Source of the DNA: Nocardia fluminea | Lineage (GTDB): Bacteria > Actinomycetota > Actinomycetes > Mycobacteriales > Mycobacteriaceae | DNA: 64,000 nucleotides | Reading direction: 5' to 3' | NCBI RefSeq assembly: GCF_002846365.1 | Contig: NZ_PJMW01000001.1 | Span: 62,001 to 126,000, forward strand | Shown: positions 14,211 to 62,829 of the stretch, one piece after another | Position numbering within the stretch: position 1 is the stretch's first letter | Layout of the letters: each line of letters begins with the position of its first letter | Translations under genes and position numbers: made by a program | Notes under the pieces: generated by a model | Told to the model about the DNA's origin: nothing | The model's input: only the letters and a program-made list of their open reading frames with translations | Database searches by the model: none

Positions 14211-14282
14211 TAACAGGCATGCGGTCACGGTGCAATGTTTCGCGGCCGCAGGCACATTTCGCGGGAGAAAGCAGGAATTCTG

Positions 14283-15797: not shown

Positions 15798-15801
15798 GTC
15801 G

Positions 15802-29619: not shown

Positions 29620-29870
29620 GGCACACACGCCTTCGGGTGGCAACGGATTCGTCGATGACGTGCCACTATGCGGTGCTCCGAACCCCGCCGAAACTCCCCC
29701 ACCGCGCCGTCGTCAGATTCTTCACGCTACGGGCAGCGGCGAACGGACTTCGGCGTTGTGCCCGAGTCGTGTGCGCAATGCCGCTGTATCGCAACAAGAA
29801 TCGCCCCTGACGGCGCGAAACGGCCCGGAACCGCTTCGGGGCGAGCGGATCCGGGCCGATCGAGACCGGC

Positions 29871-31088
29871 TCAGCAGGTGCTGGGCGCCGGTTCCCCCTG
29901 CAGCCGGGCATCGAGCCAACTCAGCGCGGAAGGCAGTCCGAGCACAGCTGCGGTCAGATGGTCCGGGGTCGGTGTCTGCTGGCTGACGACCTCGGCACCC
30001 GCGGCGCACCAGCGTCGGGTGGTCGAGGTGATCGCGTCGACCGGGATGAGGCCGTCGATCGGCGAATGCCATTCGAAGACAGGCATTGCCGGCGTGCCCG
30101 GGTACAGCTCCAAGCTGTTCTCCTCCACGACGGCGCGGGCTTCGGGGTCGCCCACCAGCGAGGTGGTGGCCGCGAAGTCGAGGATGCCGCGACCGGCTCC
30201 CGCGCCGAGGATGTCGTTGGTACAGGCGTCACGAATCGACGCGCGGGCCGCCAAGCCGCTGGCGTTCATCTGATCGCTGATCGGAAACCGTTGGGGGTAT
30301 TCCCGTTCCAGTCCGATCCCCGCGGCCAGCGCGAGACCGAAAACCGGATGCGAGCCGAAGCCGAGCCCCTCGAGCATCGAGACCAGGTTCATCGGCACCC
30401 CGCCCATCGCCGCGCCCGCGATCTCGAGTTCGGGCGCGTACTCGGGCTGCAATGCCGCAGCCCACGCCGTCGCCATGCCCCCGCCGGAATACCCGGCCAT
30501 CGCGACCCGGCTGCCGCCCACCCGCAACTGCTCGACCCGGCGCACCGCGCGGATACCGTCGAGGGTCACCTGGCCGCCCAATTTCGCGGCGCCATAGGCG
30601 AAGTTGGGTCCCAGATGGTCGGGCACGGCCATCGTCCAGCCCCGTTTCAGCGCGTAGTTCCAGGCCACCGCCTCGCGCACCATCAGGTCCGGATCGTCGG
30701 TGTAGAGAACCTTGGAGACCGAGCAGCGGGTGCCGAGTCCGTTGATGATGTGCTGGTAGGACAGCACGGGAGCATCGGTGCGATGGTTGCTCGGCTGCAG
30801 CACCGTTGTCGTCGCGGCGATCGGGTCGCCCGCGGAATTGGTGGAGCGGAACTGGATCAGGGTGATGGTGGTGTCGGGAAACATCGCCAGCGACGGCATC
30901 TGCCGCACGCCGAGTACGTCGCCGGGCTCGTACTCGGCGAGGCCGGACGGCTGACTGTAGAAGGGGTCCGGATCGGCGGTCGGGTACAGCGGAGTGGCAT
31001 GGCCCGCCACGGCGGAGGCCATGGTGAGCACCGCCGCCGCCAAGCAGACCGATAGCGTCCGGCGTGGCCGAGCGTGTCCCCAGATCAT
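29871..31088 (-). CDS. Secretory lipase, LIP family (2)
   Basis: 405 aa. Signal peptide MIWGHARPRRTLSVCLAAAV ... GHATPLY. LIP-family pattern: PSGLAEYEPGDVLGVRQ, APVLSYQHIINGLGTRC, AVPDHLGPNFAYGA, nucleophile in MAGYSGGGMATAWAA, and EWHSPIDGLIP with a probable catalytic Asp. ATG 31088 is selected over the longer frame because GGAGGGA and a good signal peptide fall there. Probably arose by duplication with the neighbouring LIP gene, though they have diverged strongly. Confidence 0.85.
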   Translation of the reverse strand: MIWGHARPRRTLSVCLAAAVLTMASAVAGHATPLYPTADPDPFYSQPSGLAEYEPGDVLGVRQMPSLAMFPDTTITLIQFRSTNSAGDPIAATTTVLQPSNHRTDAPVLSYQHIINGLGTRCSVSKVLYTDDPDLMVREAVAWNYALKRGWTMAVPDHLGPNFAYGAAKLGGQVTLDGIRAVRRVEQLRVGGSRVAMAGYSGGGMATAWAAALQPEYAPELEIAGAAMGGVPMNLVSMLEGLGFGSHPVFGLALAAGIGLEREYPQRFPISDQMNASGLAARASIRDACTNDILGAGAGRGILDFAATTSLVGDPEARAVVEENSLELYPGTPAMPVFEWHSPIDGLIPVDAITSTTRRWCAAGAEVVSQQTPTPDHLTAAVLGLPSALSWLDARLQGEPAPSTC

Positions 31089-31362
31089 GCGGCTGTCCCT
31101 CCCGTGTCGCTGCTGTCGAGAGCGATCTTCACCGGTACCGTGGCTCCTCGTCGACGGGTCGCCGCGAACATCGGCGGAGCTCACAAGCTCATCTGTGTGA
31201 GGTTGTGACCGGAGGCAGCACGCCGATATGCGGGCGCACCGCCGCGGCGACAGGTGGATTGTGAGATCTCCAAGCGAAATCGGAACGCGTTCCTCTCGAT
31301 GGTGCAAGACCTACCGTCGAGTAGGAAGGCGCTCATCAGTGCCGGGGCGAAAGGAGCACGCC

Positions 31363-32843: not shown

Positions 32844-33196
32844 TAACCAGAAATTAACTATCACAATATATTTCACTCGCTGATGCGAATATCATCGACC
32901 GGTGCCACATTGTCGCCGCCCGATGAACACAGCGAGCCGCCGGTCACGCCACTATTCGAGCACCACCCAGCACAAAGGTGGGGCGGCCACCCTGGATTCG
33001 CCGCTCAGAAGCCGGGAAATGCACCGCATCGAGACGGAATCGATCGTGCAGATGTGCTTGCATCTGAAAGTCTCTCCGTCCTAAACTCAGGGCCGCAACA
33101 CAATTCAGGGGATAGTCAGGGGAGGCCGCGAGCGGCACACCCGGGGCCAGAATTGCCTTGGGTTTGCCACTGCCTGAGTAGTACAGGGGCATTCAC
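32844..33196. other. Intergenic region with regulated promoter
   Basis: The left 40 bp are AT-rich. The right part carries the promoter at 33049-33087 and a leader of about 105 nt ahead of the 84-aa gene. No gene recognised. Confidence 0.5.
33049..33087 (+). promoter_or_regulatory. Promoter A with CAGATG/CATCTG operator
   Basis: -35 TTGCAT (33058-33063), 18-bp spacer, -10 TAAACT (33082-33087). The inverted repeat CAGATGTGCTTGCATCTG (33049-33066) covers the -35 box. A near copy occurs at 34917-34955 with the same spacing, and wider half-sites at 34725-34757. Likely controlled by the XRE/DUF5753 protein encoded nearby. Confidence 0.65.
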
Positions 33197-33451
33197 ATGA
33201 ACAACACCACAGGCCGTTACGGCCTCGCCGATCGCGCGGCGACCGACCATCCCGGCACCGGACGGTGGTCGCGGGAAAGCGCGGTCGCCTTTGTCATCGA
33301 TGCCGTGGAATCCACCGGCGCGGCGACCCGCAACGATTTCGATATCGACCGGATCGTGACCACCGCGCACGCCCTGGCCGACGACTGGGATCTGCAGACG
33401 CTCACGCCCGATACTTTCTGGCGGATCGCCGCCGGCTGTATCCGGTACTGA
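33197..33451 (+). CDS. Hypothetical protein under promoter A
   Basis: 84 aa from ATG 33197 (AGGGG 7 bp upstream). The C-terminal part (WSRESAVAFVIDAVESTGAA, IVTTAHALADDWDLQTLTPD, FWRIAAGCIRY) looks like a compact helical domain. No family recognised. Its promoter is a near twin of that of the 62-aa gene on the far side of the regulator operon, so both probably belong to one regulon. Confidence 0.65.
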   Translation: MNNTTGRYGLADRAATDHPGTGRWSRESAVAFVIDAVESTGAATRNDFDIDRIVTTAHALADDWDLQTLTPDTFWRIAAGCIRY

Positions 33452-33544
33452 TCGCGAATCGGTAGCCGACGGTCGACTGCGTGCCCTGCGCAGTCCGATC
33501 GGGTCTGCGTGTTCTCTCCCGCCCTGCCCGGTTCGGCCGTGCGG

Positions 33545-34429
33545 TCAATCCCGCTCTGCGTAGGACAGCAGGATCTCGCGCGAGCGATCGGGCAGTTCGG
33601 CCTGGACGCTGAGCTGGTCCATCACCGACAGGTACATCGCCAGGTCCTGGCGGCGCTCGAGGTAGAGCGCGCTGGTGAGTTGCTCGAGGTAGACGATATC
33701 GGGCAGTTCCGGCTCGCCGAAGCGCAGAATGCTGAACGAGCTACCCGCCGCCGCATGTCCACCCGCCGAGTACGGCAGCACCTGCACCGTCACGTTCGGC
33801 AGCAGCGAGAGCTCGGCCAGGTAGCGCAGCTGGGCCCGGTGTACCTCGCGCCCGCCGATCGGACGGTGCAGCACGGCCTCGTCGATCACCGCCCACACCA
33901 CCGGCGGGTCGACCCGGCGTAGGACGTCCTGACGCAACTGCCGAACCTGGACCCGACGGTCGGTTTCGGCGTCGTCGAAACCGAGGGTGACGATCGCCCT
34001 GGTGTACTCCGGTGTCTGTAACAGGCCGGGCACCAACTGCGCCTCGTAGGTGCGGATCTGGCTGGCCGCCTGCTCGAGCCCGAGGTAGGTGCTGAACCAC
34101 GACGGCAGCAGATCGCTGTAGCGATGCCACCAGCCGGGTTCGCTTGCCTGCCTGGCCAGTTCGAAGAACGAGGTACGCTCCACCGGATCGTGCACGCCGT
34201 AGAGCGTGAGCAGATCCCGGATGTCGCGCTCCTTGAACCCGGTGCGGCCCAGTTCGAGTCGGCTGATCTTCGCGTGCGAGCCACGGATCGCGTCACCGGC
34301 TGCCTCGCGGGTGATGCCTTTGCTCTCGCGTAGCTTGCGCAACTGGCCACCGAGCGCGATACGCAACACGGTGGGGCCCCGGTCGACAACAGGTTGTACG
34401 CGACCGATCTCGTCGGGTTCAGCCGTCAT
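33545..34429 (-). CDS. XRE-type regulator with DUF5753 domain
   Basis: 294 aa. N-terminal Cro/C1 helix-turn-helix (RKLRESKGITREAAGDAIRG, SHAKISRLELGRTGFKERDI) followed by the DUF5753 domain (SYLGLEQAA-like STYLGLEQAASQIRTYEAQL, VPGLLQTPEYTRAIV, ending YLEQLTSALYLE). Such proteins (WhiJ-like in Streptomyces) pair with a DUF397 protein and act in development or stress. The partner gene is 18 bp upstream on the same strand. CAGATG/CATCTG elements near the operon are candidate binding sites. Confidence 0.9.
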   Translation of the reverse strand: MTAEPDEIGRVQPVVDRGPTVLRIALGGQLRKLRESKGITREAAGDAIRGSHAKISRLELGRTGFKERDIRDLLTLYGVHDPVERTSFFELARQASEPGWWHRYSDLLPSWFSTYLGLEQAASQIRTYEAQLVPGLLQTPEYTRAIVTLGFDDAETDRRVQVRQLRQDVLRRVDPPVVWAVIDEAVLHRPIGGREVHRAQLRYLAELSLLPNVTVQVLPYSAGGHAAAGSSFSILRFGEPELPDIVYLEQLTSALYLERRQDLAMYLSVMDQLSVQAELPDRSREILLSYAERD

Positions 34430-34447
34430 GGACCCAGATCCTACCGA

Positions 34448-34681
34448 TTACCCGGTGAGGTAGTCGAACTCTCCGGCCTTCGCGCCGCGGATGAAAGCGT
34501 CGATCTCGGGCCGGGTGTAGAAGATCACCGACCCCTGCGGGTCGCGCGAGTTGCGCACGGCGACCGAGCCGTCGGCGGCTTCGGCGACCTCGACACAGTT
34601 GCCGCTGGGGTTGCTGTAGGTACTTTTGCGCCACGCACCGTCTCCGGGGCGTTCACGCTGATCATGCTGCATTCCGGACAT
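34448..34681 (-). CDS. DUF397 protein
   Basis: 77 aa, complete DUF397: GAWRKSTYSNPSGNCVEVAE, ADGSVAVRNSRDPQGSVIFY, IDAFIRGAKAGEFDYL. ATG 34681 has GAGGAG 6 bp upstream. First gene of a two-gene operon with the XRE/DUF5753 regulator. In Streptomyces such pairs are thought to act antagonistically, the small protein modulating the regulator; here that is by analogy. Confidence 0.92.
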   Translation of the reverse strand: MSGMQHDQRERPGDGAWRKSTYSNPSGNCVEVAEAADGSVAVRNSRDPQGSVIFYTRPEIDAFIRGAKAGEFDYLTG

Positions 34682-34724
34682 ACCGCACTCCTCGTTGTCG
34701 AATGATGCCCACCGGTACGAACAT

Positions 34725-34757
34725 TGCAGATGCACGCACAAACGTTCTTGCATCTGC
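34725..34757 (-). promoter_or_regulatory. Wide CAGATG/CATCTG operator upstream of the DUF397 operon
   Basis: Inverted half-sites TGCAGATG (34725-34732) and GCATCTGC (34750-34757) with a longer spacer than in promoters A and B. Lies 44 bp upstream of the DUF397 start, consistent with autoregulation by the operon's own XRE protein. Confidence 0.5.
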
Positions 34758-34916
34758 CTTGCGCGAGGGGGACATTAACACGCGCGGCGCCGCCGCGCAC
34801 CGGTCGGTACTTACCCGACGTCAGGATCGCGGACAGCCCTCGGCCGACTCGTCCAGCCCCCTGAATTCGTCAGCGCCACAACGCCATCGCGGCCCGACAC
34901 GGCCACAACGAACGTG

Positions 34917-34955
34917 CAGATGTGCTTGCATTCGAAAACGCACCGCCCGTAGACT
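34917..34955 (+). promoter_or_regulatory. Promoter B, near copy of promoter A
   Basis: -35 TTGCAT (34926-34931), 18-bp spacer, -10 TAGACT (34950-34955). The block GTGCAGATGTGCTTGCAT is identical to promoter A; the right half-site has changed (CATTCG instead of CATCTG). Drives the 62-aa gene, leader about 72 nt. Confidence 0.65.
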
Positions 34956-35032
34956 CCGGTTGCAAGATCATCGGGAGGTACGTCGGCGAACCAGCCGAGC
35001 AGACCTCCCGTCGCCGAATGGGAGGGGACTCG

Positions 35033-35221
35033 ATGAGCAGTCCGTTTCAGCGACACCTCGGTGCCGCAGGCGCACCGCCCACGACGTGTAGTGACGAGCC
35101 CAACGGGCTCACCTACCGTCAAGCGCGCGAGATGCTGAGCCAACACGACATCCATGGTCCGCAGTGCCGTCAGTGGCTGGCCGCTGCGGCGTATCTGTCC
35201 GCGGGGCTGGACGACGAATAG
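35033..35221 (+). CDS. Hypothetical small protein under promoter B
   Basis: 62 aa from ATG 35033 with GGGAGGGG upstream. The C-terminal part (LTYRQAREMLSQHDIHGPQC, RQWLAAAAYLSAG) is helical and similar in style to small actinobacterial regulatory proteins. A longer upstream frame would start inside the promoter and is rejected. Divergent from the DUF397/XRE operon and probably under its control. Confidence 0.65.
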   Translation: MSSPFQRHLGAAGAPPTTCSDEPNGLTYRQAREMLSQHDIHGPQCRQWLAAAAYLSAGLDDE

Positions 35222-35308
35222 TGCGGTCGTAACGTCTTCGTGCTGGTCAGCTCGGTTCCGACAGGTCATGCTGGTGGGCGACAACCGATGCGGACAGGTG
35301 GTGCGCGT

Positions 35309-35743
35309 ATGCGGATAGCGGAGATCCTGCGTAGCAAGGGCAGGGCGGTCATGACGGTGCCGCCACAGACCACAGTGCGCGAGCTGCTGACGGCGCTGGC
35401 CGAACACAATATCGGCGCGGTGGTCGTCTCTCCCGACGGTGCCGTGATCGCGGGCATCGTCTCCGAGCGCGACGTGGTGCGTCATCTGCACCTCCACGGC
35501 GCCGCACTGCTGGATCGGCCGGTCACCGACATCATGACCGCCCGGGTTCGTACCTGCGGGCCCGACGAGGACGTCTCCTCGCTGCGAGATGTGATGACCG
35601 AGCACCGGATCCGGCACATGCCGGTCGTGACATCCGACCGGCTCATCGGCATCGTCAGCATCGGTGACGTGGTGAAGAGCGAGATCACCGAACTCGCCGC
35701 CGAACGCGAACACCTCGTCGAGTACCTCCAGGGCAACTACTGA
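35309..35743 (+). CDS. CBS-domain pair protein
   Basis: 144 aa made of two CBS motifs: TVRELLTALAEHNIGAVVVS with GIVSERDVVRHL, then DVSSLRDVMTEHRIRHMPVV with GIVSIGDVVKSEI. A Bateman module that senses adenine nucleotides or similar ligands; stand-alone forms regulate partner enzymes. ATG 35309 has AGGTGG 6 bp upstream. It precedes the PLP/HMA cluster by 87 bp in the same direction but is not clearly part of it. Confidence 0.88.
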   Translation: MRIAEILRSKGRAVMTVPPQTTVRELLTALAEHNIGAVVVSPDGAVIAGIVSERDVVRHLHLHGAALLDRPVTDIMTARVRTCGPDEDVSSLRDVMTEHRIRHMPVVTSDRLIGIVSIGDVVKSEITELAAEREHLVEYLQGNY

Positions 35744-35829
35744 GGCCGGCACCGGCCCGCAGCACCGAAAAGCCTTGCGCCTGAGTATTCTTCGCGAAAC
35801 GCACCGAAAACGCGCGTATCGTTGACCAG

Positions 35830-37107
35830 GTGCACCCCGTCCGGCCCGAGCTCGCCGCCGCCTCGGTGATCCGGCATGCGCCCACCCCGGTGCCCTCCTC
35901 GATTCGGGCACGATTCCCGGCCCTGACCGATCCCGCGGTGGTCTATCTCGACAGTGCAGCCACGACCCAGAAGCCCGACACCGTCATCGCGGCCGTCGCC
36001 GACTACCACCGCGCGCACACCGCCAACGCGGGCCGCGGCACCTACAGCTGGGCCACCGCGCTCTCGGCGCGGATCGACGCTGTCCGCACCCGGGCGGCCG
36101 GTTTCCTCGGCGCGCGCCACAGCGACGAGATCGTGTTCACCAGCGGCGCCACCGCCGCCCTCGGCGCGATCGCGCACAGTTGGGGCCTGGCCGAGCTCGC
36201 CGACGGCGACGAGATCCTCTACCACCCGGCAGACCACGCCGCCAATGTGCTGCCGTGGCATCACCTGCGCGACATCCTCGCCGGATTCGGCCGCCGGATC
36301 GTGTTGCGTCCCTATCTGGCCACCGCGACCGGTGAGGCCGATATCGACGACATCCTCGCGCAGGTCGGCCCACGCACCCGCCTGATCACCACCAGCCACC
36401 TGCATCACGTGTACGGCGGGCTCACCACCCTCGAGGAACTGCACGGCCGGATCGACCCCGAGATCCTGCTGTGCTTCGACTGCTCGCAGAGCGGGGGGCA
36501 TCTGCCGGTCGATGTGACCGCGCTGCGTGCCGATTTCGCGGTCTTCGCCGGGCACAAGATGTTCGGCGCGCCCGGCACCGGTCTGCTGTACTGCCACCGC
36601 CGGGTGCACGACAGGTTGCGGCCCTTCCTGCCCGGCGGGCACTCCGGGGTCAGGATCACCGACGCGGGACTGGTCAGCACCGGCATGCCCGAGCTGCTCG
36701 AGGGCGGCACGCACAATATTCCCGGGATCCTCTCGCTCGCACCGGCTTTCGATCTGCTCGACGAGCTCGACCGTTTCGCTGTCGCCGAACACAACCGCAT
36801 GCTCACTCTGCGGCTCATCGACGGCCTGCGCGGGGTCCCCGGGCTCGATTTCCTTCCCGGGCCCGCGCACGCGGGCTGTGCCGTCGGCTACGGGATCGTC
36901 TCGTTCACCCTCGACGCGATCAGCGCCACCGATCTCGGGTTCGTCCTGGCCGATGCCGGGTTCCTGGTGCGAACCGGAGCGCACTGTGTGCCCTCTGCCG
37001 ACCCCGGTGACGGTTCGGTGCGGGTGAGTACCCAGCTCTACAACACCCTCGACGAGATCGACCGATTCGTCGCCTGCGTGTCCGGCATCGCCGGGCACGG
37101 GCGCTGA
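35830..37107 (+). CDS. Cysteine-desulfurase-like class V aminotransferase
   Basis: 425 aa PLP enzyme of the SufS/Csd type. Features: VVYLDSAATTQKPDTV, TSGATAALGAIAHSW, the PLP Asp region LLCFDCSQSGGHLPVDV, the Schiff-base lysine in FAGHKMFGAPGTG (K243), and a late Cys in VRTGAHCVPS (C386) where SufS has its persulfide-forming Cys. It could take sulfur from cysteine and leave it as a persulfide for a partner. GTG 35830 gives a normal N-terminus. First of four same-strand genes spaced 39, -4 and -1 bp; no Suf/Isc scaffold gene is adjacent, so a role in a specialised pathway is likelier than Fe-S assembly. Confidence 0.85.
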   Translation: MHPVRPELAAASVIRHAPTPVPSSIRARFPALTDPAVVYLDSAATTQKPDTVIAAVADYHRAHTANAGRGTYSWATALSARIDAVRTRAAGFLGARHSDEIVFTSGATAALGAIAHSWGLAELADGDEILYHPADHAANVLPWHHLRDILAGFGRRIVLRPYLATATGEADIDDILAQVGPRTRLITTSHLHHVYGGLTTLEELHGRIDPEILLCFDCSQSGGHLPVDVTALRADFAVFAGHKMFGAPGTGLLYCHRRVHDRLRPFLPGGHSGVRITDAGLVSTGMPELLEGGTHNIPGILSLAPAFDLLDELDRFAVAEHNRMLTLRLIDGLRGVPGLDFLPGPAHAGCAVGYGIVSFTLDAISATDLGFVLADAGFLVRTGAHCVPSADPGDGSVRVSTQLYNTLDEIDRFVACVSGIAGHGR

Positions 37108-37146
37108 ACAACCTGTCCTTCAAGCCCCCGACGCCGAGGAGGAACG

Positions 37147-38400
37147 ATGGGCTCGCCCACCGTGCAGCACTACGATCGCCGCGCCGCGTCCCGGGTACTG
37201 GCCCGCTTGGCCGCTCCGGGACTGTTCGCTGCCACCGAACCGCCGCCTCCGGCGCGAATCACCTTTCGTGCCACATCATTACAGCCCGAGCCCGGCGCCG
37301 CGCTGACGCAGTCGCAACGGATGTATCTGGAGCGGTTCATGCGGCCGTGCCGACCGGATCAGGTGACCAGCGCGACCCATCGCCTCACCTGGACCGACAG
37401 CGCGGGCATTCCCAACACGGGGTACTTCCACTCCGCGGGCGCGGGCCCCGAACTCGCGGTGATCGCGCGTGAAACCGTTCTCGCCCTGTGGTATTCGCTG
37501 GCAGCCTCCGGACTGCCTGCACGGGGCGCGGTCCTGCCCGCCCACGAGCACGGTGCGCTTTGTGCGACCACCACCGATCACGATCCGCACGAGATCTTCC
37601 GGGTCGGCATCGAGGCAGCGGGGCGCGCACTGGTCCAGCACGGACTGATCGCCGCCGACACCCCCTATCGCGGGATCGTCGAATTCGCCACCGGGATGCG
37701 TGATTGCGGCGTCTTCACCGCCGTCGCCACCCGCTGGTTCTGGGAATTGCAGGCGTCGACCTTCCGGCGCGGGATGATCCCGGTGCGCTTCGCCACTCAG
37801 GCCGATGGGACCGTGCGCTACACCGCCGACTCGATCGCTGTGCTGCGCGCGATGAAGGACGCCACCATCGCCGACGCGCGCGCGGTGATGCTGCGCGCGA
37901 CCGGCGAGGAGGGCCTCGAGATTGAGGCGGCCGTCGCGAAGTACCACGACGATCTGGATCTGATCTCCCGGCAATACGCGCTGCTGCCCGCCGACACGCG
38001 ACCCACCTGTCTGGCCGCGACCCAGCACGACATCGACGGCGCCGGTGTGCACGTCCTCGCCACGGTCGCCGATCGGTTCGTCGAGACGTTCGCCGCGCTG
38101 ACCGGCTCGGTGGAGGTGGTCGAGGACCTGACCGAGGAACAGCCGGGCACCGGCCCCACCGGCGAGGACGACGTGTTCTTCGTCCCCGATATGAGCTGCC
38201 GACATTGCGTGCGCACGATCACCGCCCTGCTCGAGTCGATGGAGATCGCGGTGGTCGAGGTCGATCTGGAGTCCAAGCGGGTGGTCGCCCGGATCCGCAG
38301 CCCGCGCAACAGGTTCCGTGTCTTCGAGGCGTTGCGCGATGGCGGCTACAACCCGGTCGACGACGTGCCGGCGCAGGTGCCCGGCGCGTCGGTGGGATGA
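37147..38400 (+). CDS. Unknown protein fused to C-terminal HMA metal-binding domain
   Basis: 417 aa. The last ~75 residues form a heavy-metal-associated domain: FVPDMSCRHCVRTITALLES with the M-x-C-x-x-C copper-type site, then VVEVDLESKRVVARI and ALRDGGYNPV. The first ~330 residues I do not recognise; they include LTQSQRMYLERFMRPCRPDQ, HRLTWTDSAGIPNTGYFHSA, LPAHEHGALCATTTDHDPHE (His/Cys/Asp-rich, possibly a metal site) and VEFATGMRDCGVFTAVATRW. No signal peptide or membrane span. ATG 37147 follows GAGGAA. It overlaps the next gene by 4 bp, so it is made with the PLP enzymes; a metal-dependent biosynthetic step or metallochaperone role is possible. Confidence 0.75.
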   Translation: MGSPTVQHYDRRAASRVLARLAAPGLFAATEPPPPARITFRATSLQPEPGAALTQSQRMYLERFMRPCRPDQVTSATHRLTWTDSAGIPNTGYFHSAGAGPELAVIARETVLALWYSLAASGLPARGAVLPAHEHGALCATTTDHDPHEIFRVGIEAAGRALVQHGLIAADTPYRGIVEFATGMRDCGVFTAVATRWFWELQASTFRRGMIPVRFATQADGTVRYTADSIAVLRAMKDATIADARAVMLRATGEEGLEIEAAVAKYHDDLDLISRQYALLPADTRPTCLAATQHDIDGAGVHVLATVADRFVETFAALTGSVEVVEDLTEEQPGTGPTGEDDVFFVPDMSCRHCVRTITALLESMEIAVVEVDLESKRVVARIRSPRNRFRVFEALRDGGYNPVDDVPAQVPGASVG

Positions 38401-39806
38401 TCCCGCCCGCCGTTCCCGCCGCGCTGCATCCGCTCGTCGCCGCGTTCCTCACCGATCGCGACGGCGTGCGTGCCGCACTGCGCCGCTACGGCTCCCCCGT
38501 GCATCTGGTGTTCCCGCAGATCTTCGCCGCCAACCTCACCGCGCTGCGTGCCGTGCTCGACGCGGCGGCGGTCCGGCATCGAATCTGCTACGCGCACAAG
38601 GTGAACCGCTCCGCGGCGTTCGCCCGTACCGCCGCGCACACGGGAATCGCCGTCGATGTGGCGTCCGCGGGCGAACTGCGTTCCGCGCTGTCGGCCGGGT
38701 TCCCCGCCGATCGCATCGAGGTGACCGGTCCCAAGGGCGCCACGATGCTGCGGGCCACGCTCGCGGCCGCGGCGACGGTCAATGTCGACAACCTCTGGGA
38801 ACTCACGACCCTGGCCGAGCTGGCGCCGCCGGAATCGGCGGTGCCGGTGCTGCTGCGTGTTTCGGGCTTCTCCGGCAGCGCACCGAGCCGGTTCGGCATC
38901 GATCTCGCCGACGTGGCCACGGCGCTGGAGTTACTGGTACGTCACCGAGACCGGCTGCGACTGCTGGGATTCGCCTTTCACCTTGATACCGCTGCCACCG
39001 CGGAACGGGTCAACGCCGTGGGCGATTGCCTGGAATTGATCGAACGGGCCTACGCGCACGGCCTCGCGCCGTCGGTGCTCGATATCGGCGGTGGCCTACG
39101 TCAGGTCTTCACCGCCGACGCCGGTGGCTACGACGCCTACGACCACGCGCTACGGGCGGGCCTGCTCGGGCGTGGGCCCGCGCTGCACTGGGGCAACAAC
39201 ACCTTCGGCTATCACGTCGCCGAGGGGACGGTGCACGGCGGACCGGTGTTCCACAAGTACGCCAATACCGAACCCGCCGCCGAGATCCTCGCCGAGCTGC
39301 TCGCGGCTCCGCTGCCCGGGCACGGTGGACGGGCGCTGGGGGCGGTCCTCACCGACAATCTCCTCGATCTGTGGCTCGAACCGGGCAAAGCGCTGGTCGA
39401 CCACGCCGGCATCACCGTGGCGCAGGTCGAATTCGTCAAACACGCGGGCAACGGCGCGCGGCTGGTGCATCTGGATCTGAGCCGCGACACCGTCACCGCC
39501 GCCGACCAGGAGGTGCTCATCGATCCGATCGTGCTGGCCGAGGTCAGCGAACCGCGTCCGGTCGGGGTGTATTTCGCCGGGCACCTGTGTCTCGAGCGCG
39601 ATCTGATCACCCAGCGGCAGGTGCGGGTCGCAGCCCTGCCGTCGCCCGGCGATCCGGTGGTGTTTCCCAACACCGCCGCCTACCACACAGACCTGTCGGC
39701 CGCGCAGGCCGCGATGCACCCGACTCCCGCGAAAGTCGCTGTGCTGCACCGAGCGGGACAGTTCGTACTCTGCCCTGACCTCGACTATCTGCCCGGGGGC
39801 CGGTGA
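38397..39806 (+). CDS. PLP enzyme, DapDC/alanine-racemase fold (Y4yA-like)
   Basis: 469 aa fold-III PLP enzyme related to diaminopimelate/ornithine decarboxylases. PLP lysine in ICYAHKVNRSAAFART (K68), phosphate-binding VLDIGGGLRQVF, and a C-terminal AGHLCLERDLITQR block with the Cys and Asp that normally belong to the substrate site. The variant C-terminal block and HLDTAATAERV resemble the Y4yA group, whose reaction is not established. ATG 38397 overlaps the previous TGA (ATGA), indicating translational coupling. By fold it should decarboxylate or racemise an amino acid or a diamino acid conjugate, similar in role to SbnH in staphyloferrin B, but this is inference. Confidence 0.8.
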   Translation: MIPPAVPAALHPLVAAFLTDRDGVRAALRRYGSPVHLVFPQIFAANLTALRAVLDAAAVRHRICYAHKVNRSAAFARTAAHTGIAVDVASAGELRSALSAGFPADRIEVTGPKGATMLRATLAAAATVNVDNLWELTTLAELAPPESAVPVLLRVSGFSGSAPSRFGIDLADVATALELLVRHRDRLRLLGFAFHLDTAATAERVNAVGDCLELIERAYAHGLAPSVLDIGGGLRQVFTADAGGYDAYDHALRAGLLGRGPALHWGNNTFGYHVAEGTVHGGPVFHKYANTEPAAEILAELLAAPLPGHGGRALGAVLTDNLLDLWLEPGKALVDHAGITVAQVEFVKHAGNGARLVHLDLSRDTVTAADQEVLIDPIVLAEVSEPRPVGVYFAGHLCLERDLITQRQVRVAALPSPGDPVVFPNTAAYHTDLSAAQAAMHPTPAKVAVLHRAGQFVLCPDLDYLPGGR

Positions 39807-41119
39807 TGGTCTACACCCACATCACCGAGTTGATCGGCAACACTCCCCTGCTGCGCCTCGACCCCGCCGTTCACGGGCTGCCCGATGTCGAGCTGTACGC
39901 GAAACTGGAGTCGCACAACCCCTTCGGGTCGGTGAAGGACCGCGTCGCCTGGGCGATGATCCGCGACGACATCGAGCGCGTCCGCGCGGACGGACAGTCG
40001 TTCATCGAGGCGTCGAGCGGAAACACCGCCAAAGCGCTGCGCGTTCTCGGCGCGCTGCACGGCATCCCGCTGCGCGCGGTCACCAACCGGATCAGGGTGA
40101 GCGAGGTCCGCCAGCTGCTGCAACTGCTCGGCACGGAGATCGTGGAACTTCCTGGCCTGTCCGAATGCCCCGACCCCCATGCCGCCGACGATGTTTCCGC
40201 CGTCATCGATCAGACCATCGGCCAGGCGCCCGAACGGTGGTATCACCCCTCGCAGTACACCAACGAGCGCAATATCGCCGCCCACCACGACGGCACCGGC
40301 ACCGAGATCGCCACCGACCTCGCAGAGGCGGGCATCGGCCGTCTCGACTATCTGATCGGCGGTCTCGGCACCACCGGCTCCACCCGGGGCACCGCGACCG
40401 CGCTGCTGGCCCACCATCCGGACCTGCGCACCGTCGGGGTGGTCTCGGACCGCTTCGATTTCATCCCCGGTATCCGCTCCGAGCGCGAGATGTGGGACGT
40501 CGGTCTGTTCCGGCCGGATTTCTACGACGAGATCGTCACCGTCGACTCCGCCGCCGCCATCGAGGCGACCCTGGACCTGATGCGCGGGTACGGCGTGCTC
40601 GCCGGACCCACCAGTGGCGCGGGCTATTGCGCGGCGCTGCGCACCTTGGCCACGGCACCGCGCCCCGAGGGCAGAGCCCTGGTGGCCGTGCTGATCGTGT
40701 GCGACCGGATCGAACCGTATCTGTCCTATCTGGCCAAACGCAGGCCGGACCTGTTCGGCAAACCCACCGTGCCCGCGCCCCCGAGCCCCGAGGACCCCGC
40801 GCCGGCTCTCTCACCCGCCGAGCTGGCCGAACTCGACCGCACCGCCAGACCCACCGTCGTCGACACCCGCGGCGCGATGGCCTACCGCGTCGGGCACGTC
40901 CCCGGCGCGCTCAACATCCGCGACGACCAGCTCGACGAGATGCTCACCCAGGGTGTGCCGTTTCCGCGGTCACGGCCGGTGGTGTTCGTGTGCCCGGTCG
41001 GGGAAACCTCGCTGCGCTTCGCCGCGGTGGCCCACCGCGCGGGCTACGAGGCGTTCAGCCTCGCGGGCGGCATCGTCGCCTGGCGTGACGCCGGATACGC
41101 GATGGAACGCGGCGGCTGA
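39806..41119 (+). CDS. Cysteine-synthase-like enzyme fused to rhodanese
   Basis: 437 aa. Residues about 1-315 are a fold-II PLP beta-synthase: LIGNTPLLRLDP, lysine in NPFGSVKDRVA (K44), SSGNTAKAL, GGLGTTGSTRGTA and GVLAGPTSGAGYCAA. After a Pro-rich linker (PTVPAPPSPEDPAPALSP) comes a rhodanese domain: VVDTRGAMAYRVGHVPGALN, active-site loop VCPVGETSLR with Cys, and GGIVAWRDAGY. The synthase half resembles SbnA/CysM types that join a nucleophile to a serine derivative; the rhodanese half could hand over persulfide sulfur from the desulfurase-like enzyme encoded upstream. ATG 39806 overlaps the preceding stop by 1 bp. Confidence 0.85.
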   Translation: MVYTHITELIGNTPLLRLDPAVHGLPDVELYAKLESHNPFGSVKDRVAWAMIRDDIERVRADGQSFIEASSGNTAKALRVLGALHGIPLRAVTNRIRVSEVRQLLQLLGTEIVELPGLSECPDPHAADDVSAVIDQTIGQAPERWYHPSQYTNERNIAAHHDGTGTEIATDLAEAGIGRLDYLIGGLGTTGSTRGTATALLAHHPDLRTVGVVSDRFDFIPGIRSEREMWDVGLFRPDFYDEIVTVDSAAAIEATLDLMRGYGVLAGPTSGAGYCAALRTLATAPRPEGRALVAVLIVCDRIEPYLSYLAKRRPDLFGKPTVPAPPSPEDPAPALSPAELAELDRTARPTVVDTRGAMAYRVGHVPGALNIRDDQLDEMLTQGVPFPRSRPVVFVCPVGETSLRFAAVAHRAGYEAFSLAGGIVAWRDAGYAMERGG

Positions 41120-42658
41120 TCAGACGAGCACCCTGGTGGCCCGGCGGGCGCTGCTCAGCGTACGAGCGCGAGCGGTCGTCGCCAGCAGCACCGTGAGCGG
41201 ACCGCGATACCCGTCGGCGAGCAGCCCGACGATCGCCCGGAAGCGCGCGACGAACTGCTGCGCGGTCGCCTCGTCGAACCGGGCGATCGGATAGATGAAC
41301 GACCCGTCGACCCCGGCGGGCGCGCCGAGCGGATCGTAGTGATCGGTGAGCCCGAACTCGAGGTCGTGCTTGGCCCTGACCACACCGGTCGGCACCTCGG
41401 TGATCGAAAGCCCGGAGGCCGCAGCGCGTTCGACGGTGGTGCGCGGCGCCTGCGCGCGTTGCAGGATGAGCGTGGCCTGGAACAGCGGGTGCGCGGCGTC
41501 CTGCGGCAGGCAACGTTTGAGGCGCGGGTTGGGGGTGTCGGGGTGGGCGTAGGCGGCGAGCGCGACCCGGCGCACTTGATCGAGGAGTTCGCCGACGTCG
41601 GCGGCGCGGTCGAGGCGCACGCGCATCAGCACGTCATCGGAGAAGTTGCCGACGAGATCGTCGAGCAGCCGGTGGTCGCGACCCGGCACTGCCGTGGCGA
41701 CCGTGACGTCGGAGCTACGCGCGAACGCGCCGACCGTGAGCGCGAACGCGGCCTGCAACACCATGAACAAGCTCGCCCGTCCTTCCTGCGCCATCCGCAG
41801 CAGCCCGGCGTGGGTCGCGGCGTCCACCGAGATCGGCAGCAGTGCACCGGCGACCGGGTCGATCGGGGTCGCGGGCAGTGCGCGGACGGGCAGGTCGAGC
41901 AGGGCCGGACGACCCGCCAGCGCATTGGCCCAGTACCGCAGCTGATGCGTGGCCCGGCTCCACTCGTCGGTGAACTCGCCGAGCTGCTCGTGCTTCCACA
42001 GGGTGTAGTCGATGTAGCTGATCGGCAGCGGCGGCCAGCGCGGGACGGTGCCTGCACGGCAGGCCAGGTAGGCGGTGACGAGGTCGCGGATCAGCGGACC
42101 CATCGAGCGACCGTCGACCGAGATGTGGTGCACGACAAGGCCGAGCACCACATCCTCGGGGCCGAGCACGAACAGCCGCGCCCGCACCGGCAGGTCGCGG
42201 GCGAGGTCGAAGGGCCGGCCGGCCAGTTCGGCCACGGCGGAAGCAAGTTCTGTTTCGGTGACCTCACATTCGGCCACATCGAGCACGACTTCGTCGGGAT
42301 CGACCACGCGCTGGGCCGGACCGAGCTCGGTCGCCGGAAAGCGGGTTCGTAGCGGAACATGCCGGGCGACAAGCAATGTCAGCGCCTCGCGCAGTGCGGT
42401 CGTATCGATCTGCGCGCCGCGCAGACGCACGGCCCGCGCGACGTTCCAGTCCGCCGACCGGCCCCCGCGCGCGTCATGCCACATTCGCTCCTGCGCGGGC
42501 GCCAGCGGTACATGGGCCGGGCACGGCCGCGGGGCCGGTACCGGTGCGGCGGCCGGCCGCGGACAGACCGGATCGCTCCCGGTGCGCGCGACCGCCGGCA
42601 AAACGCCGCTACCGGCGTCGAATCCCCCCGATCCGATCCCCACACCGGGGTCCCACAC
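41120..42658 (-). CDS. Free-standing NRPS-type condensation protein
   Basis: 512 aa. Condensation (C) domain motifs: VPLAPAQERMW (C1), the active site VHHISVDGRSMGPL with full HHxxxDG (His178), YIDYTLWKHEQL, and VGNFSDDVLMRVRL near C5. No adenylation or carrier domain is attached. It would join two activated acyl/aminoacyl groups or acylate an acceptor on a partner carrier protein. GTG 42658 follows GGAGG. A Pro/Ala-rich N-terminal segment of about 45 aa precedes the domain. Its stop abuts the stop of the cysteine-synthase/rhodanese gene (TGATCA), so it may belong to the same pathway though read from its own promoter. Confidence 0.85.
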   Translation of the reverse strand: MWDPGVGIGSGGFDAGSGVLPAVARTGSDPVCPRPAAAPVPAPRPCPAHVPLAPAQERMWHDARGGRSADWNVARAVRLRGAQIDTTALREALTLLVARHVPLRTRFPATELGPAQRVVDPDEVVLDVAECEVTETELASAVAELAGRPFDLARDLPVRARLFVLGPEDVVLGLVVHHISVDGRSMGPLIRDLVTAYLACRAGTVPRWPPLPISYIDYTLWKHEQLGEFTDEWSRATHQLRYWANALAGRPALLDLPVRALPATPIDPVAGALLPISVDAATHAGLLRMAQEGRASLFMVLQAAFALTVGAFARSSDVTVATAVPGRDHRLLDDLVGNFSDDVLMRVRLDRAADVGELLDQVRRVALAAYAHPDTPNPRLKRCLPQDAAHPLFQATLILQRAQAPRTTVERAAASGLSITEVPTGVVRAKHDLEFGLTDHYDPLGAPAGVDGSFIYPIARFDEATAQQFVARFRAIVGLLADGYRGPLTVLLATTARARTLSSARRATRVLV

Positions 42659-42861
42659 TCGTCCGCAACCTCCACACCGTTTCCGACAGGTGAGGAACGC
42701 TAACGAGCAGATGTGAACACGCAGTTACCGGATCGTGACCATGCTCGGTCAGCCCGCCCCCATCGCGGATCCCGAGATTTCGCCGACTATCCACTTTCCG
42801 GGCGAAATCGCCCAAAAGCCGCGTTAGAGTAGCGAAGGGAAGCGGAGCGAGGAGTTGGTTG

Positions 42862-43242
42862 GTGTCCATCGGGAAATTGGTGTCGTTCGACGGTTCACGG
42901 GGTTTCGGATTCATCCGGCCCGATGACGGCGGGCCCGATGTGTTCGTCCACGTCAACGACATCGGCCTCGACGAGGACGAGCTGCGCCAGGGCCGCCTGT
43001 TCGAATTCGATGTGACCGAAGGCGATCGGGGCCCCAAGGCGATCAATCTCACCGGGGTCGGGCAGCCCCCCACCGCCGCGAAGACGCGCAAGGGCGGCGA
43101 CCGGCTCAATGCCGACGAACTGCGTCAGCAGATCACCGAATTGCTGCTGGAAGCCTCTCCCGCGCTCACCGCGGCCGAGATCATCACCATTCGCGATCGG
43201 TTCACCATCTTCGCCGACGAGCACGGCTGGCTCGACAGCTGA
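42862..43242 (+). CDS. Cold-shock domain protein with C-terminal extension
   Basis: 126 aa. The N-terminal 65 residues form a cold-shock domain: GKLVSFDGSRGFGFIRPDDG with RNP1 (GFGFI) and DVFVHVNDI (RNP2). The other ~60 residues (LNADELRQQITELLLEASPA, LTAAEIITIRDRF) are helical and not usual for CspA. It binds RNA or single-stranded DNA. GTG 42862 has GGAG 7 bp upstream. Transcribed alone. Confidence 0.9.
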   Translation: MSIGKLVSFDGSRGFGFIRPDDGGPDVFVHVNDIGLDEDELRQGRLFEFDVTEGDRGPKAINLTGVGQPPTAAKTRKGGDRLNADELRQQITELLLEASPALTAAEIITIRDRFTIFADEHGWLDS

Positions 43243-43420
43243 CCTCACCCACGGGCCGGTGACGCGCCCGCGGTGAACTCGCGCGAGGGCCCGACGCGAC
43301 AGACGCGCACTCGACGTCCACGCACGTGTCGGTCCCCCGTCCTACGATCGCCTCACACACCGATGAATCGGGCGTGCTCGCATCGTCGACACGGGTGAAC
43401 ACATCCGCGAGGAGGATCGA

Positions 43421-44500
43421 ATGGATCTACCGGTGATGCCGCCAGTGCGCCCCATGCTGGCCAAGTCGACGCCGTCGCTACCGCGCGAACCAGGACTGAG
43501 CTACGAACCGAAGTGGGACGGCTTCCGCTGCATCGTGTTCCGCGACGGTGACGAGATCGAACTGGGCTCCCGCAACGACCGCCCGCTCACCCGCTATTTT
43601 CCCGAGCTGGCCGAACTGCTGAAGGAGGCGTTGCCGCCGCGCTGCGTGATCGACGGGGAGATCGTGGTCGTCACCGAGCACGGCCTCGATTTCGACACCT
43701 TGCAGCAGCGGTTGCATCCGGCCGCGTCGCGGGTCACCAAGCTCGCGGCGGAGACACCGGCCAGTTTCGTCGCCTTCGATCTGCTCGCCCTCGGCGATCG
43801 CGATCTGACCACCGAACCGTTCGCGCGACGGCGCCGCGAGCTCGAGTCGTTGCTCACCGCCGCGCCCGGCCGGATCCATCTCACGCCGATCACCCACGAT
43901 CCCGACGTGGCTCAGGACTGGTTCACCCGTTTCGAAGGCGCGGGCTTCGACGGGGTGATGGCCAAGTCCGACGAGCTGACCTATCTGCAGGACAAGCGCG
44001 TGATGCTCAAGATCAAACACGAACGCACCGCCGACTGCGTCGTCACCGGATACCGGATGCACAAGGACGGCGAAGGCGTCGGTTCGCTGCTGCTCGGCCT
44101 GTTCGACGACGAGGGCAATCTGCACCATGTCGGGGTGGCCTCGAGTTTCACCGCGGCCCGGCGCCGCGAACTACTCGGGGAGCTGGCGCCGTTGCGCGAG
44201 AACGCACTCGACGATCATCCGTGGCGCGACTGGGCCGACGCCGCCGCTCAGGCGAACGCCGAGGGCAAGATGCCCGGCGGGCAGAGCCGCTGGAGCGGCG
44301 GCAAGGATCTGTCGTGGGAGCCGTTGCGTCCCGAGCTGGTCGCGGAGGTGCGCTACGAGCACGTGCAGTCGGGACGATTCCGCCACGGCGGGCGGCTGGC
44401 ACGGTTCCGGCCCGACCGGACCCCGGAATCGTGTACCTACGCACAGCTCGACGAAGTCGCACCCGCCGAGCTCGACGCGATCTTCGGAATCGGCGCATGA
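43421..44500 (+). CDS. ligC: ATP-dependent DNA ligase, LigC type
   Basis: 359 aa. The nucleotidyltransferase core has the AMP-accepting lysine in YEPKWDGFRCIV (KWDG), EGEIVV-like IDGEIVVV, FDGVMAKS and LKIKHERTADCVV; an OB-fold domain follows. Size and order match mycobacterial LigC, which seals nicks in DNA repair. It overlaps the PrimPol gene by 4 bp (ATGA), the same pairing as LigC/PrimPolC in mycobacteria, linked to gap filling in base excision repair. Confidence 0.9.
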   Translation: MDLPVMPPVRPMLAKSTPSLPREPGLSYEPKWDGFRCIVFRDGDEIELGSRNDRPLTRYFPELAELLKEALPPRCVIDGEIVVVTEHGLDFDTLQQRLHPAASRVTKLAAETPASFVAFDLLALGDRDLTTEPFARRRRELESLLTAAPGRIHLTPITHDPDVAQDWFTRFEGAGFDGVMAKSDELTYLQDKRVMLKIKHERTADCVVTGYRMHKDGEGVGSLLLGLFDDEGNLHHVGVASSFTAARRRELLGELAPLRENALDDHPWRDWADAAAQANAEGKMPGGQSRWSGGKDLSWEPLRPELVAEVRYEHVQSGRFRHGGRLARFRPDRTPESCTYAQLDEVAPAELDAIFGIGA

Positions 44501-45495
44501 GCGCCCCGGTGGAACTCGACATCGACGGCCGGGCGCTGAGCATCAGCAATCCCGACAAGGTCTACTTCACCAAACGCGGCGAGACCAAGCTCGATCTGGT
44601 CAACTACTACCGCGCCGTCGCCGAACCGCTGCTCGGGGTGATCGGGGGCAGGCCGTTGCTGCTGGAACGCTATCCCGACGGCGCGTCGGGCAAGTCGTGG
44701 TTCCAGAAGCGGGTGCCGACGTCCGCGCCGGACTGGTTGCGCACCGTGGAGGTCACCACGCCCAACGGCACCACCAGCGACGCGCTGGTGGCCCACGATC
44801 TCGCGCATATCCTGTGGGCGGTGAATCAGGGCTGCCTCGGTTTTCACGTATGGCCCAATCATGTTCCCGATCTGCGGATCGCCGACGAACTGCGCATCGA
44901 CCTCGACCCCTCGCCCGGTATCGGTTTCGATGATCTGCGCCGCGCCGCGGTGCTGACCCGTGATCTGCTGGCCGAACTCGGCATCGATTCGTCCATCAAG
45001 ACCTCGGGCTCGCGTGGCCTGCACATCTACGCGGCGCTGGAACCGCGCTGGGACGGCTACGAGGTGCGCGCCGCGGCGGTGGCGCTGGCCAGGGAGCTCG
45101 AGCGCAGGCATCCCGAGCAGATCACCGCGCAGTGGTGGAAGGAGGAACGCGGCTCGCGGGTGTTCGTCGACTTCAATCAGAACGCCCCGCACAAGACCGT
45201 ATTCGGCGCCTGGTCGGTGCGCCCGAAGGTCGGCGGGCAGGTATCGACACCGATCACCTGGGCCGAGCTCGACACCGTCGTCCCCGACGAACTCACCCTC
45301 GCCACCGTGCCCGCCCGCCTCGCCGAAGCCGGCGATCCCTGGGCGGACCGGGCACCACAGTCGATCGAACCGCTGCTGGAGATGTCCGAGCGCGACATGG
45401 CGGCGGGATTGATGGACGCACCGTGGCCACCGCAGTATCCGAAGATGCCCAACGAGCCCCCGCGCGTGCAACCGAGCCGTGCCAAGAAGGATTGA
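44497..45495 (+). CDS. LigD-like primase-polymerase (PrimPolC)
   Basis: 332 aa archaeo-eukaryotic primase-type polymerase, similar to the polymerase domain of LigD but stand-alone. Key pieces: LSISNPDKVYFTKRGETKLD, catalytic acids in LRIDLDPSPGIGFDDLR, SSIKTSGSRGLHIY and VFVDFNQNAPHKTVFGAWSV. It fills short gaps with ribo- or deoxynucleotides for the partner ligase. ATG 44497 overlaps the ligase stop, indicating coupled translation. Confidence 0.9.
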   Translation: MSAPVELDIDGRALSISNPDKVYFTKRGETKLDLVNYYRAVAEPLLGVIGGRPLLLERYPDGASGKSWFQKRVPTSAPDWLRTVEVTTPNGTTSDALVAHDLAHILWAVNQGCLGFHVWPNHVPDLRIADELRIDLDPSPGIGFDDLRRAAVLTRDLLAELGIDSSIKTSGSRGLHIYAALEPRWDGYEVRAAAVALARELERRHPEQITAQWWKEERGSRVFVDFNQNAPHKTVFGAWSVRPKVGGQVSTPITWAELDTVVPDELTLATVPARLAEAGDPWADRAPQSIEPLLEMSERDMAAGLMDAPWPPQYPKMPNEPPRVQPSRAKKD

Positions 45496-61818: not shown

Positions 61819-62655
61819 TCAGCGCAGAACGTCGACCGCGTCCGCGAGACTCGCGACCCGCTCGACCGAGTCGGGCAGCAGCACCGCATCCCAGCCGGGC
61901 CCGCCGATGAGCACCCTGGCTCCGGCTCCCGCACAGGCCAAGACCGCCGAGGTCAACGCGGTCGACTCGCGTTGGGACCACAGCAGCACCGAGGCCCCGC
62001 TCGCATGCCGGGCGAGAGCGTCGGACAACGCCACCGTCGGCACGTCGGCGCCCAGCATGCGCGCGCCCACCCCGGCTTGCGCCAGAGCGGCACGCAGCAC
62101 ATCGAGGGGCAGCGAATGGGTTTCGCCGCTCGTACAGGCGAGCAACACGGGCGCACTGCTGCGGGCCGGCGTCACCTGCTGCATGACCGCCGCGATCGAC
62201 CACGACAGCAGGTGCTCGACGTCGATGCAGCCCTCGCCGCTGCCCTGACGCGCCACGACATCGGCGAAAGCGGGGCGGCACAGGGCATCCCAGGTCTGTA
62301 TCACGCCATGCGCCCGCACATGGGCGTCGAGATGGGCGTAGACGGTGGTGGTATCCAGCGCGAACGCCGCGTCCAGCAACCCCGTGCGGTCACCGAGGAT
62401 CGGCACGGGCCCGCGCGCGGCCGCCGCGGCTCCGGCAGGACTCGCGCCGCCGCCGATCAGCGCGAGCATGTGCTCGAGCACGGCGATGTCGGTGTCGGTG
62501 TAGAGCCGATGACGGCCGGGCCGGTCCTGGGCGGGACCGATGCCGTACCGGCGATTCCAGCTTCGCAGGGTCGCGGTGGGAATGCCGAGACGGTCGGCTA
62601 CCGCGCGCACCGTGAATCCGGCCGCGGCGGTGACAGGAGCAGAACCGGCGGGCAT
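61819..62655 (-). CDS. MerR-type regulator with B12-binding-like domain (LitR/CarH-like)
   Basis: 278 aa. N-terminal MerR helix (FTVRAVADRLGIPTATLRSW, NRRYGIGPAQDRPGRHRLYT), a four-helix middle region, and a C-terminal Rossmann-like cobalamin-binding part (VLLACTSGETHSLPLDVLRA). In CarH/LitR, adenosyl-B12 is held by W-x9-EH and (D/E)xHxxG. Here EH (147-148) and ExH (E178, H180) remain, but the Trp is Gln and the Gly is Pro, so light-sensitive B12 binding is not certain. ATG 62655 is the start. Divergent from a lipocalin-photolyase operon, the classic light-induced partners of LitR. Confidence 0.8.
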   Translation of the reverse strand: MPAGSAPVTAAAGFTVRAVADRLGIPTATLRSWNRRYGIGPAQDRPGRHRLYTDTDIAVLEHMLALIGGGASPAGAAAAARGPVPILGDRTGLLDAAFALDTTTVYAHLDAHVRAHGVIQTWDALCRPAFADVVARQGSGEGCIDVEHLLSWSIAAVMQQVTPARSSAPVLLACTSGETHSLPLDVLRAALAQAGVGARMLGADVPTVALSDALARHASGASVLLWSQRESTALTSAVLACAGAGARVLIGGPGWDAVLLPDSVERVASLADAVDVLR

Positions 62656-62764
62656 CGTTTCATTCTGCCCGGGACGCCTGGACCGGCGCGTCACGGCCCG
62701 GCCTCCGCGCGCCGACGGCAGGCCGAACCCGTCGCGCCGACACCTCGCTGCACCGCCTGTCTCA

Positions 62765-62796
62765 TGCATCAATAGTGCATCACTTGCTGGTAATAT
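62765..62796 (+). promoter_or_regulatory. Promoter with direct repeats, probable LitR-type operator
   Basis: Two exact TGCATCA repeats (62765-62771 and 62776-62782, 11-bp period) stand over the -35 region of a promoter with -10 TAATAT (62791-62796). The position just upstream of the lipocalin start, facing the MerR gene, fits repression in the dark. No good -35 box is present. Confidence 0.55.
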
Positions 62797-62829
62797 GGGA
62801 GCAACACCGACTACCGCGAGGAGTTTTCT

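Follow-up and report, generated by a model that had tools for sequence, protein, structure and literature searches.

The stretch of DNA analysed here, called the window in what follows, covers 64,000 nucleotides of Nocardia fluminea (contig NZ_PJMW01000001.1 of assembly GCF_002846365.1, positions 62,001 to 126,000, forward strand). It contains four closely packed genes, here called A to D, which encode a cysteine desulfurase-like protein, an orphan domain joined to an HMA domain, a probable decarboxylase dependent on pyridoxal 5'-phosphate (PLP), and a cysteine-synthase-like enzyme fused to a rhodanese. A convergent gene for a condensation protein, E, lies directly behind them. The four genes are known by family likeness alone, and they form a conserved module, of which the trio A, C and D is found in many streptomycetes. 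The features of the locus, in window coordinates, are these:

35814-35824, + strand: promoter-like element GCGTATCGTTG upstream of A, function putative
35830-37107, + strand: gene A, SufS-like (class V) cysteine desulfurase, 425 residues; Pfam Aminotran_5 at residues 38-413
37147-38400, + strand: gene B, orphan domain plus HMA, 417 residues; sole Pfam match HMA, residues 343-380
37147-38151, + strand: N-terminal 335 residues of B, without a Pfam match
38167-38364, + strand: HMA domain of B, residues ~341-406, with the metal motif MSCRHC at residues 349-354
38397-39806, + strand: gene C (start ATG), Y4yA/DAPDC-like fold-III PLP enzyme, probable decarboxylase, 469 residues; Pfam Orn_Arg_deC_N
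39806-41119, + strand: gene D, CysM-like beta-replacement domain fused to a rhodanese; Pfam PALP and Rhodanese
40811-41089, + strand: rhodanese domain of D, residues 337-429, motif CPVGETS
41120-42658, - strand: gene E, stand-alone condensation protein; Pfam Condensation; convergent with D

A first-pass annotation of this DNA had described four packed genes with a 39 bp gap followed by overlaps of 4 bp and 1 bp, and the same coordinates were recovered. A and B are 39 bp apart, B and C overlap by 4 bp, and C and D overlap by 1 bp if D starts at ATG 39806, or by 4 bp with the alternative start GTG 39803, from which the residues of D are counted in this text. The condensation protein with an intact HHxxxDG motif, convergent with D, was also found as described: the motif reads HHISVDG, and E abuts D. 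A longer version of C (533 residues, from 38205) was taken as spurious; its 64-residue head sits inside B in a different frame. We infer that A to D share one message and form one transcription unit. In the window the GTG start of A lies so near GCGTATCGTTG that this message would be nearly leaderless, and 9-mers of the word are present in 20-21 of the 31 Nocardia regions upstream of A. A scan of these 31 regions with crude patterns found no IdeR-, Zur- or CsoR-like box in any of them, and an Rfam scan of window positions 33000-45000 gave no match.

The four genes are a real conserved unit. A check on the co-occurrence of their families found A-B-C-D kept across Nocardia, and A, C and D together again in streptomycetes. 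The order A-B-C-D is seen, as far as contigs reach, in 31 of 36 Nocardia genomes; four of these 31 run off the contig end, and one (G028) has a frameshift in A. When gene families were counted over 33 Nocardia loci, with neighbours called by a simple gene caller of our own, B was present in 31, C in 31, D in 30 and A in 28, and the next commonest neighbour in 20. No transporter or scaffold gene is constantly tied to the unit in these 33 loci or in the 83 streptomycete-type loci described below. As side observations, a divergent small F420/PPOX-like protein, which scores under the cut-off of its model, adjoins the unit upstream of A in 17 of the 33 loci (as in locus L038, 11896-12228). Downstream of D there is a TetR-type regulator in many loci (L038 1180-1809), and in 11 of 33 a sodium/hydrogen exchanger with a zf-UBP domain (L038 2036-3910).

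Outside Nocardia the genes are arranged as C-D-A. On two Streptomyces plasmids (L079 and L080) C and D are adjacent with A just behind, and a profile of C led to 80 further loci, nearly all from Streptomyces, with some from Kitasatospora, Actinacidiphila and Streptantibioticus. Together with L079, L080 and L083 these make up 83 streptomycete-type loci, the 80 being the best of 359 relatives and not a random sample. All 83 loci hold C and D, 82 have A directly behind, and 80 have a class I methyltransferase; none has B (0 B rows in the alignment). Beyond these four families no neighbour family, called with the same simple gene caller, occurs in more than 22 of the 83, and a 75-residue protein without a Pfam match lies near such loci, not constantly. 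When 394 genomes drawn evenly from the class were searched, 19 had D at E<=1e-70: four of the genus Nocardia, 13 of genus g27, which is probably Streptomyces, and two of family f103, both of which show C-D-A. In two g27 genomes (G706 and G714) D is split across two frames. A tree of C was built from 41 chosen rows (15 from the first Nocardia cluster, seven from a second Nocardia cluster, two from f103, 14 streptomycete-type and three linked to SbnA genes), and it splits into the A-B-C-D type of Nocardia on one side and, on the other, the C-D-A type, which takes in streptomycetes, f103 and the second Nocardia cluster. The streptomycete methyltransferase was found by tblastn in none of the seven second clusters and neither of the two f103 loci. 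Since A, C and D recur together without B, the core of the unit is A, C and D.

The second Nocardia cluster, of C-D-A type, gives information about A. It is present in seven of the 36 genomes, and all seven hold C, D and A, with an internal stop in the C of one (G003, L085 9247-10683). In L085 it adjoins a methyltransferase unlike the streptomycete one. Five genomes (G012, G016, G019, G021 and G032) have lost the A gene of the first cluster wholly or for the most part. Short remnants of A are left in G012 and G019 and none in G016; G032 has an in-frame deletion that joins residues 1-101 to 408-424 and leaves an open frame of slightly more than 100 codons (L036 8010-8345); and the locus of G021 is fragmented, with B on its own, C-D at another place and no A. 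The second cluster is present in all five of these genomes, compared with two of the 31 that have A (Fisher one-sided p = 5.6e-5). On the tree of B five branches carry the losses, and its well-supported forks require at least four. The simplest reading is that the desulfurases of the two clusters seem to be interchangeable: an A from either cluster would work for the other as well, with B and the C and D of the first cluster retained. This reading ties A functionally to B, C and D. It also suggests that A does a common step, and C and D specific ones.

For all four proteins the residues expected to be catalytic or metal-binding were counted by alignment over the loci, with the window as reference (122 rows for A, 35 for B, 124 for C and 123 for D; rows omit loci where the gene is missing or cut to below the score limit). 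The first-pass annotation had called A a desulfurase, C a protein of PLP decarboxylase fold and D a synthase joined to a rhodanese, and the residues expected of each are kept. In A the PLP lysine K243 is present in 122/122 rows and the persulfide cysteine C386 in 120/122, the other two being gaps. C has its PLP lysine K68 and active-site cysteine C398 in 124/124 rows and matches PF02784 with 88 bits (gathering score 23.4). We take the active-site cysteine loop as the mark of a decarboxylase, and C is probably one. In D the PLP lysine K45 (in NPxxSxKDR) and the rhodanese cysteine C397 are each found in 123/123 rows, and the rhodanese domain matches PF00581 with 55.2 bits (cut-off 22.2). The best solved relatives of the PLP domain of D are the cysteine synthase 9nld and then entries of cysteine synthase B (CysM), one of which also carries the name O-phosphoserine sulfhydrylase; these CysM entries we take to be the enteric and M. 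tuberculosis enzymes.

Measured against models of named enzymes, A, C and D appear related to, yet apart from, the enzymes they resemble. The SufS model TIGR01979 gives A 276.1 bits (NCBI cut-off 475.1), and the second-best NCBIfam model, for the family 2A encapsulin cargo desulfurase (NF041166), gives 222 bits with a cut-off of 800. C, scanned as the over-long 533-residue form, reaches 123.4 bits with the LysA model TIGR01048 (cut-off 297.9). Among the models matched by D, CysKM comes first (158.9 bits), then CysM (147.7 bits; 140.2 bits when set against the TIGR01138 cut-off of 394.2) and SbnA (133.6 bits, cut-off 349.95), and a cysteate synthase model gives 89.2 bits (cut-off 600).

Gene B is of a different kind. 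Its HMA domain scores 28.5 bits with PF00403 (cut-off 24.8) and the MxCxxC motif is present in 35/35 rows; B would bind a soft metal, probably Cu(I). Over the 335 residues used in one search, B is 98% identical to a protein assigned to N. fluminea. The N-terminal 335 residues have a confident predicted model (predicted local distance difference, pLDDT, 87.1; predicted template modelling score, pTM, 0.88). A fold search with the model of full-length B matched the HMA domain only, and the N-terminal part, searched by itself, had no clear match among solved structures, though its fold may still be a known one. In a search of 60 genomes, full-length B was found in all 36 of the genus Nocardia; the remaining 24, which belong to other families, gave no full-length match, and two of them match the HMA part only. 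Wider searches, which scored 4-7 candidates per genome and could therefore miss a rare B outside Nocardia, found no full-length B outside the genus among 396 genomes of the phylum (13 had short matches to the HMA part) or, by profile, among 394 of the class (four such matches). The N-terminal part alone, searched in 296 genomes, gave only three weak partial matches (E 0.001-0.007), which were not counted as B, and nothing related to B turned up in plasmid and phage records at the limit used. Since B is found only in Nocardia, the core chemistry must be able to run without its copper-type site. The copper-type site of the first-pass annotation stands as an HMA motif in B, and not as a part of the core.

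How these parts may work together can be put as a route, of which every chemical step, the substrates and the product are our proposal. A would take sulfur from L-cysteine and hold it as a persulfide on C386, and this sulfane sulfur would pass to C397 in the rhodanese domain of D. The CysM-like domain of D would form aminoacrylate from an O-activated serine (O-phosphoserine or O-acetylserine) and add the delivered sulfur to it, giving a cysteine-type thiol or a hydropersulfide amino acid. C would then remove the carboxyl group from this product or from a conjugate formed with it, leaving a cysteamine-like compound of the aminothiol type. In streptomycetes the adjacent methyltransferase may methylate the product, and in Nocardia B, with a soft metal bound (Cu(I) being the probable one), may protect the thiol or make use of it. 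A relay of sulfur is the best reading of A to D. The first-pass annotation had arrived at a similar route, and its order of desulfurase, rhodanese, synthase and decarboxylase is retained here, without the condensation step that it had placed at the end. We tentatively favour the view that A to D are a unit of a conserved actinobacterial sulfur pathway with A, C and D as its core and this relay as its chemistry, at somewhat less than an even chance. The rhodanese of D is fused to the CysM-like domain, and a carrier protein would thus be unnecessary. A more specific version, in which the rhodanese of D feeds the aminoacrylate of the same protein in a new aminothiol or hydropersulfide pathway that ends in decarboxylation, with B as a copper protein of new fold that handles the metal-thiol, we consider rather doubtful.

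Several points weigh against the relay. A route that merely returned the sulfur of cysteine to cysteine would achieve nothing. Either the acceptor or the step that follows must therefore depart from a simple conversion of serine to cysteine, and another product has to be assumed; candidates are a hydropersulfide, a conjugate, or an amino acid that is substituted or homologous. The substrates in the route are putative, and with A, C and D far below the cut-offs for SufS, LysA and CysM each may have a specificity of its own. The substrate loop of D reads SSGNTAK, with A76 and K77 in 123/123 rows, where aligned cysteine synthases read SGNTG. There are also partly conserved neighbours for which the relay gives no account, among them the TetR-type regulator (20/33) and an HTH/DUF5753 gene (18/33) in Nocardia, and an ATP-binding cassette (ABC) transporter ATPase family in 22/83 streptomycete-type loci. 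As for the loss of A, G003 and G004 carry both A and a second cluster, and G028 has its frameshift in A without a second cluster (counted as defective, it changes p to 3.2e-4). Two genomes, G015 (78%) and G032 (85%), are less than 90% complete, which makes absences there less sure. The loss could instead mean that the housekeeping SufS takes over.

Of the other explanations, a role in sulfur housekeeping survives best, and we regard it as unlikely. Here the genes would balance cysteine, persulfide and sulfide, or detoxify cyanide, and C would degrade a surplus amino acid. The presence of B in all 36 Nocardia genomes fits this, as does the lack of a constantly linked transporter, and the parts resemble family 2A encapsulin operons with a cysteine desulfurase, a serine acetyltransferase and a rhodanese (PMC8346489, in part). 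A dedicated decarboxylase and the streptomycete methyltransferase would be unexpected in pure sulfur storage, however, and neither encapsulin nor serine acetyltransferase genes are constantly linked.

It is decidedly unlikely that D instead adds sulfite or thiosulfate to activated serine, with C turning the product into taurine or S-sulfocysteamine by way of cysteate or S-sulfocysteine. E. coli CysM uses thiosulfate, as do rhodaneses, and D matches both CysM and the cysteate synthase model. The latter match is far under its cut-off, and a desulfurase with a kept persulfide cysteine would have no obvious role.

A pathway of the diaminopropionate or ethylenediamine type, in which D would form a C-N bond like SbnA, C would act like SbnH, and the rhodanese and the desulfurase would have a side role, has several precedents in its favour and is, in our view, quite improbable. 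In Agrobacterium, Y4yA relatives of C lie beside genes for a cysteine synthase, an octopine/nopaline-dehydrogenase-like protein and IucA/IucC. The Mycobacterium avium plasmid pMAH135 (L082) carries a Y4yA gene with those for a cysteine synthase, an ornithine cyclodeaminase-like protein and a MATE exporter, and in the window's own genome such a set precedes the window by ~24-30 kb (L086 7047-12567: a VioC/TauD-like oxygenase, SbnB-like, Y4yA, SbnA-like, MATE exporter). The SbnH of staphyloferrin B decarboxylates a diaminopropionate residue (PMC3179956, in part). Against this, neither A-D nor C-D-A has an SbnB-like gene as a constant neighbour, and D ranks CysKM and CysM above SbnA while the enzyme of L086 scores SbnA first, at 202.9. 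The three sampled Y4yA proteins linked to SbnA form a separate clade with support of 100/100 (one, L081, is flagged as a long branch), and the rhodanese with its invariant cysteine is left without a role. On pMAH135 the genes lie beside a copper-resistance block (CsoR, Cu-ATPase, multicopper oxidase).

An accessory system for iron-sulfur clusters or for thiolation of tRNA or cofactors, to which the SufS-like A and the rhodanese of D might point, is very improbable: a second full-length SufS-like match (35% identity) is encoded on another contig of the window's genome, A is not in a suf operon, no scaffold gene is constantly linked, and such a system has no use for a decarboxylase or a beta-replacement enzyme.

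The condensation protein E was tried as a partner of A to D and rejected as sporadic in Nocardia and not always linked. In the window it lies directly against D, as it does in four of 32 further Nocardia loci (broken into pieces in one of the four), and in a fifth locus it is ~4 kb from D. Orthologs (>=59% identity, i.e. at least that) were found in six of 22 Nocardia genomes in a search that scored at most 42 candidates per genome; of these six, one is separated from the cluster by 2.8 Mb, another sits on a different contig, and a third is interrupted by two stop codons. E is probably not part of the unit, and the proposal that it joins the product to something could not be upheld. The same applies to the secreted metallophore or secondary metabolite that the first-pass annotation had argued for, as no further gene family occurs in more than 20/33 or 22/83 loci and B is in all 36 Nocardia genomes. 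Such a compound, finished by E, would suit the loci where E abuts D and the copper-type HMA of B, and is nevertheless highly improbable given the patchy orthologs of E, a C-D-A core that occurs without B in streptomycete-type loci, and the lack of any constantly linked condensation, carrier, adenylation or transport gene in the 33 Nocardia and 83 streptomycete-type loci.

Elsewhere in the window, beyond E, the domains of a LigD-type ligase and primase-polymerase are found on two separate neighbouring genes (43421-45495). Two adjacent secretory lipase (LIP) genes lie at 28255-31307 on the - strand. At 61819-63318, also on the - strand, there is a MerR-type regulator with a B12-binding domain match under the cut-off, which we take to be possibly a light or cobalamin sensor. 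Positions 1-16000 have a G+C content of mostly 0.63-0.67, a few percent lower than the remainder.

The set points to a sulfur metabolite that is apparently undescribed. It also suggests that a CysM-like enzyme may supply itself with sulfur, no carrier protein being needed, and it includes a metal-binding protein, specific to the genus, of which one domain is an orphan. The first-pass annotation knew of no described pathway with this set, and we likewise found no paper on it in the open-access literature, searched by title and start of abstract; the pathway is apparently undescribed. Its parts can be compared with known systems. The HMA domain of B has the MxCxxC motif and the fold of the copper chaperones Atx1 and CopZ, and unlike these it is fused behind a 335-residue domain with neither a Pfam match nor a clear solved-fold match. 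The family 2A encapsulin operons also combine a SufS-like desulfurase with a rhodanese, whereas A is without the cargo N-terminus (its match starts at model position 228) and no encapsulin gene is constantly linked. A decarboxylase, which belongs to A-D, is not named for these operons in the portion of PMC8346489 used here. In SbnA/SbnB/SbnH of staphyloferrin B and in the Y4yA siderophore loci, a cysteine-synthase-like enzyme likewise stands beside a fold-III decarboxylase (PMC3179956, in part). In A-D, by contrast, no SbnB-like or IucA/IucC gene is constantly linked, D has a rhodanese and a desulfurase is in the set, and C is ~31-33% identical to the Y4yA proteins of those loci. The last comparison is with mycobacteria, where MoeZ (E1 plus rhodanese) loads the carrier CysO, CysM moves the sulfur of CysO onto O-phosphoserine, and a cysteine desulfurase is taken as the feeder of MoeZ (PMC3227635, in part); operons of a cysteine synthase with E1-rhodanese and JAB genes have also been described (PMC1779556, in part). 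Among the neighbours identified at the loci, E1, CysO and JAB genes are not constantly linked to A-D or C-D-A. In both systems a rhodanese would load sulfur for a CysM-type enzyme that acts on an O-activated serine. The difference is that D fuses the rhodanese to its CysM-like domain and that a decarboxylase belongs to the set, and we read A to D as a probable relay that brings sulfur to an enzyme of the CysM type and leads to an end product of its own.

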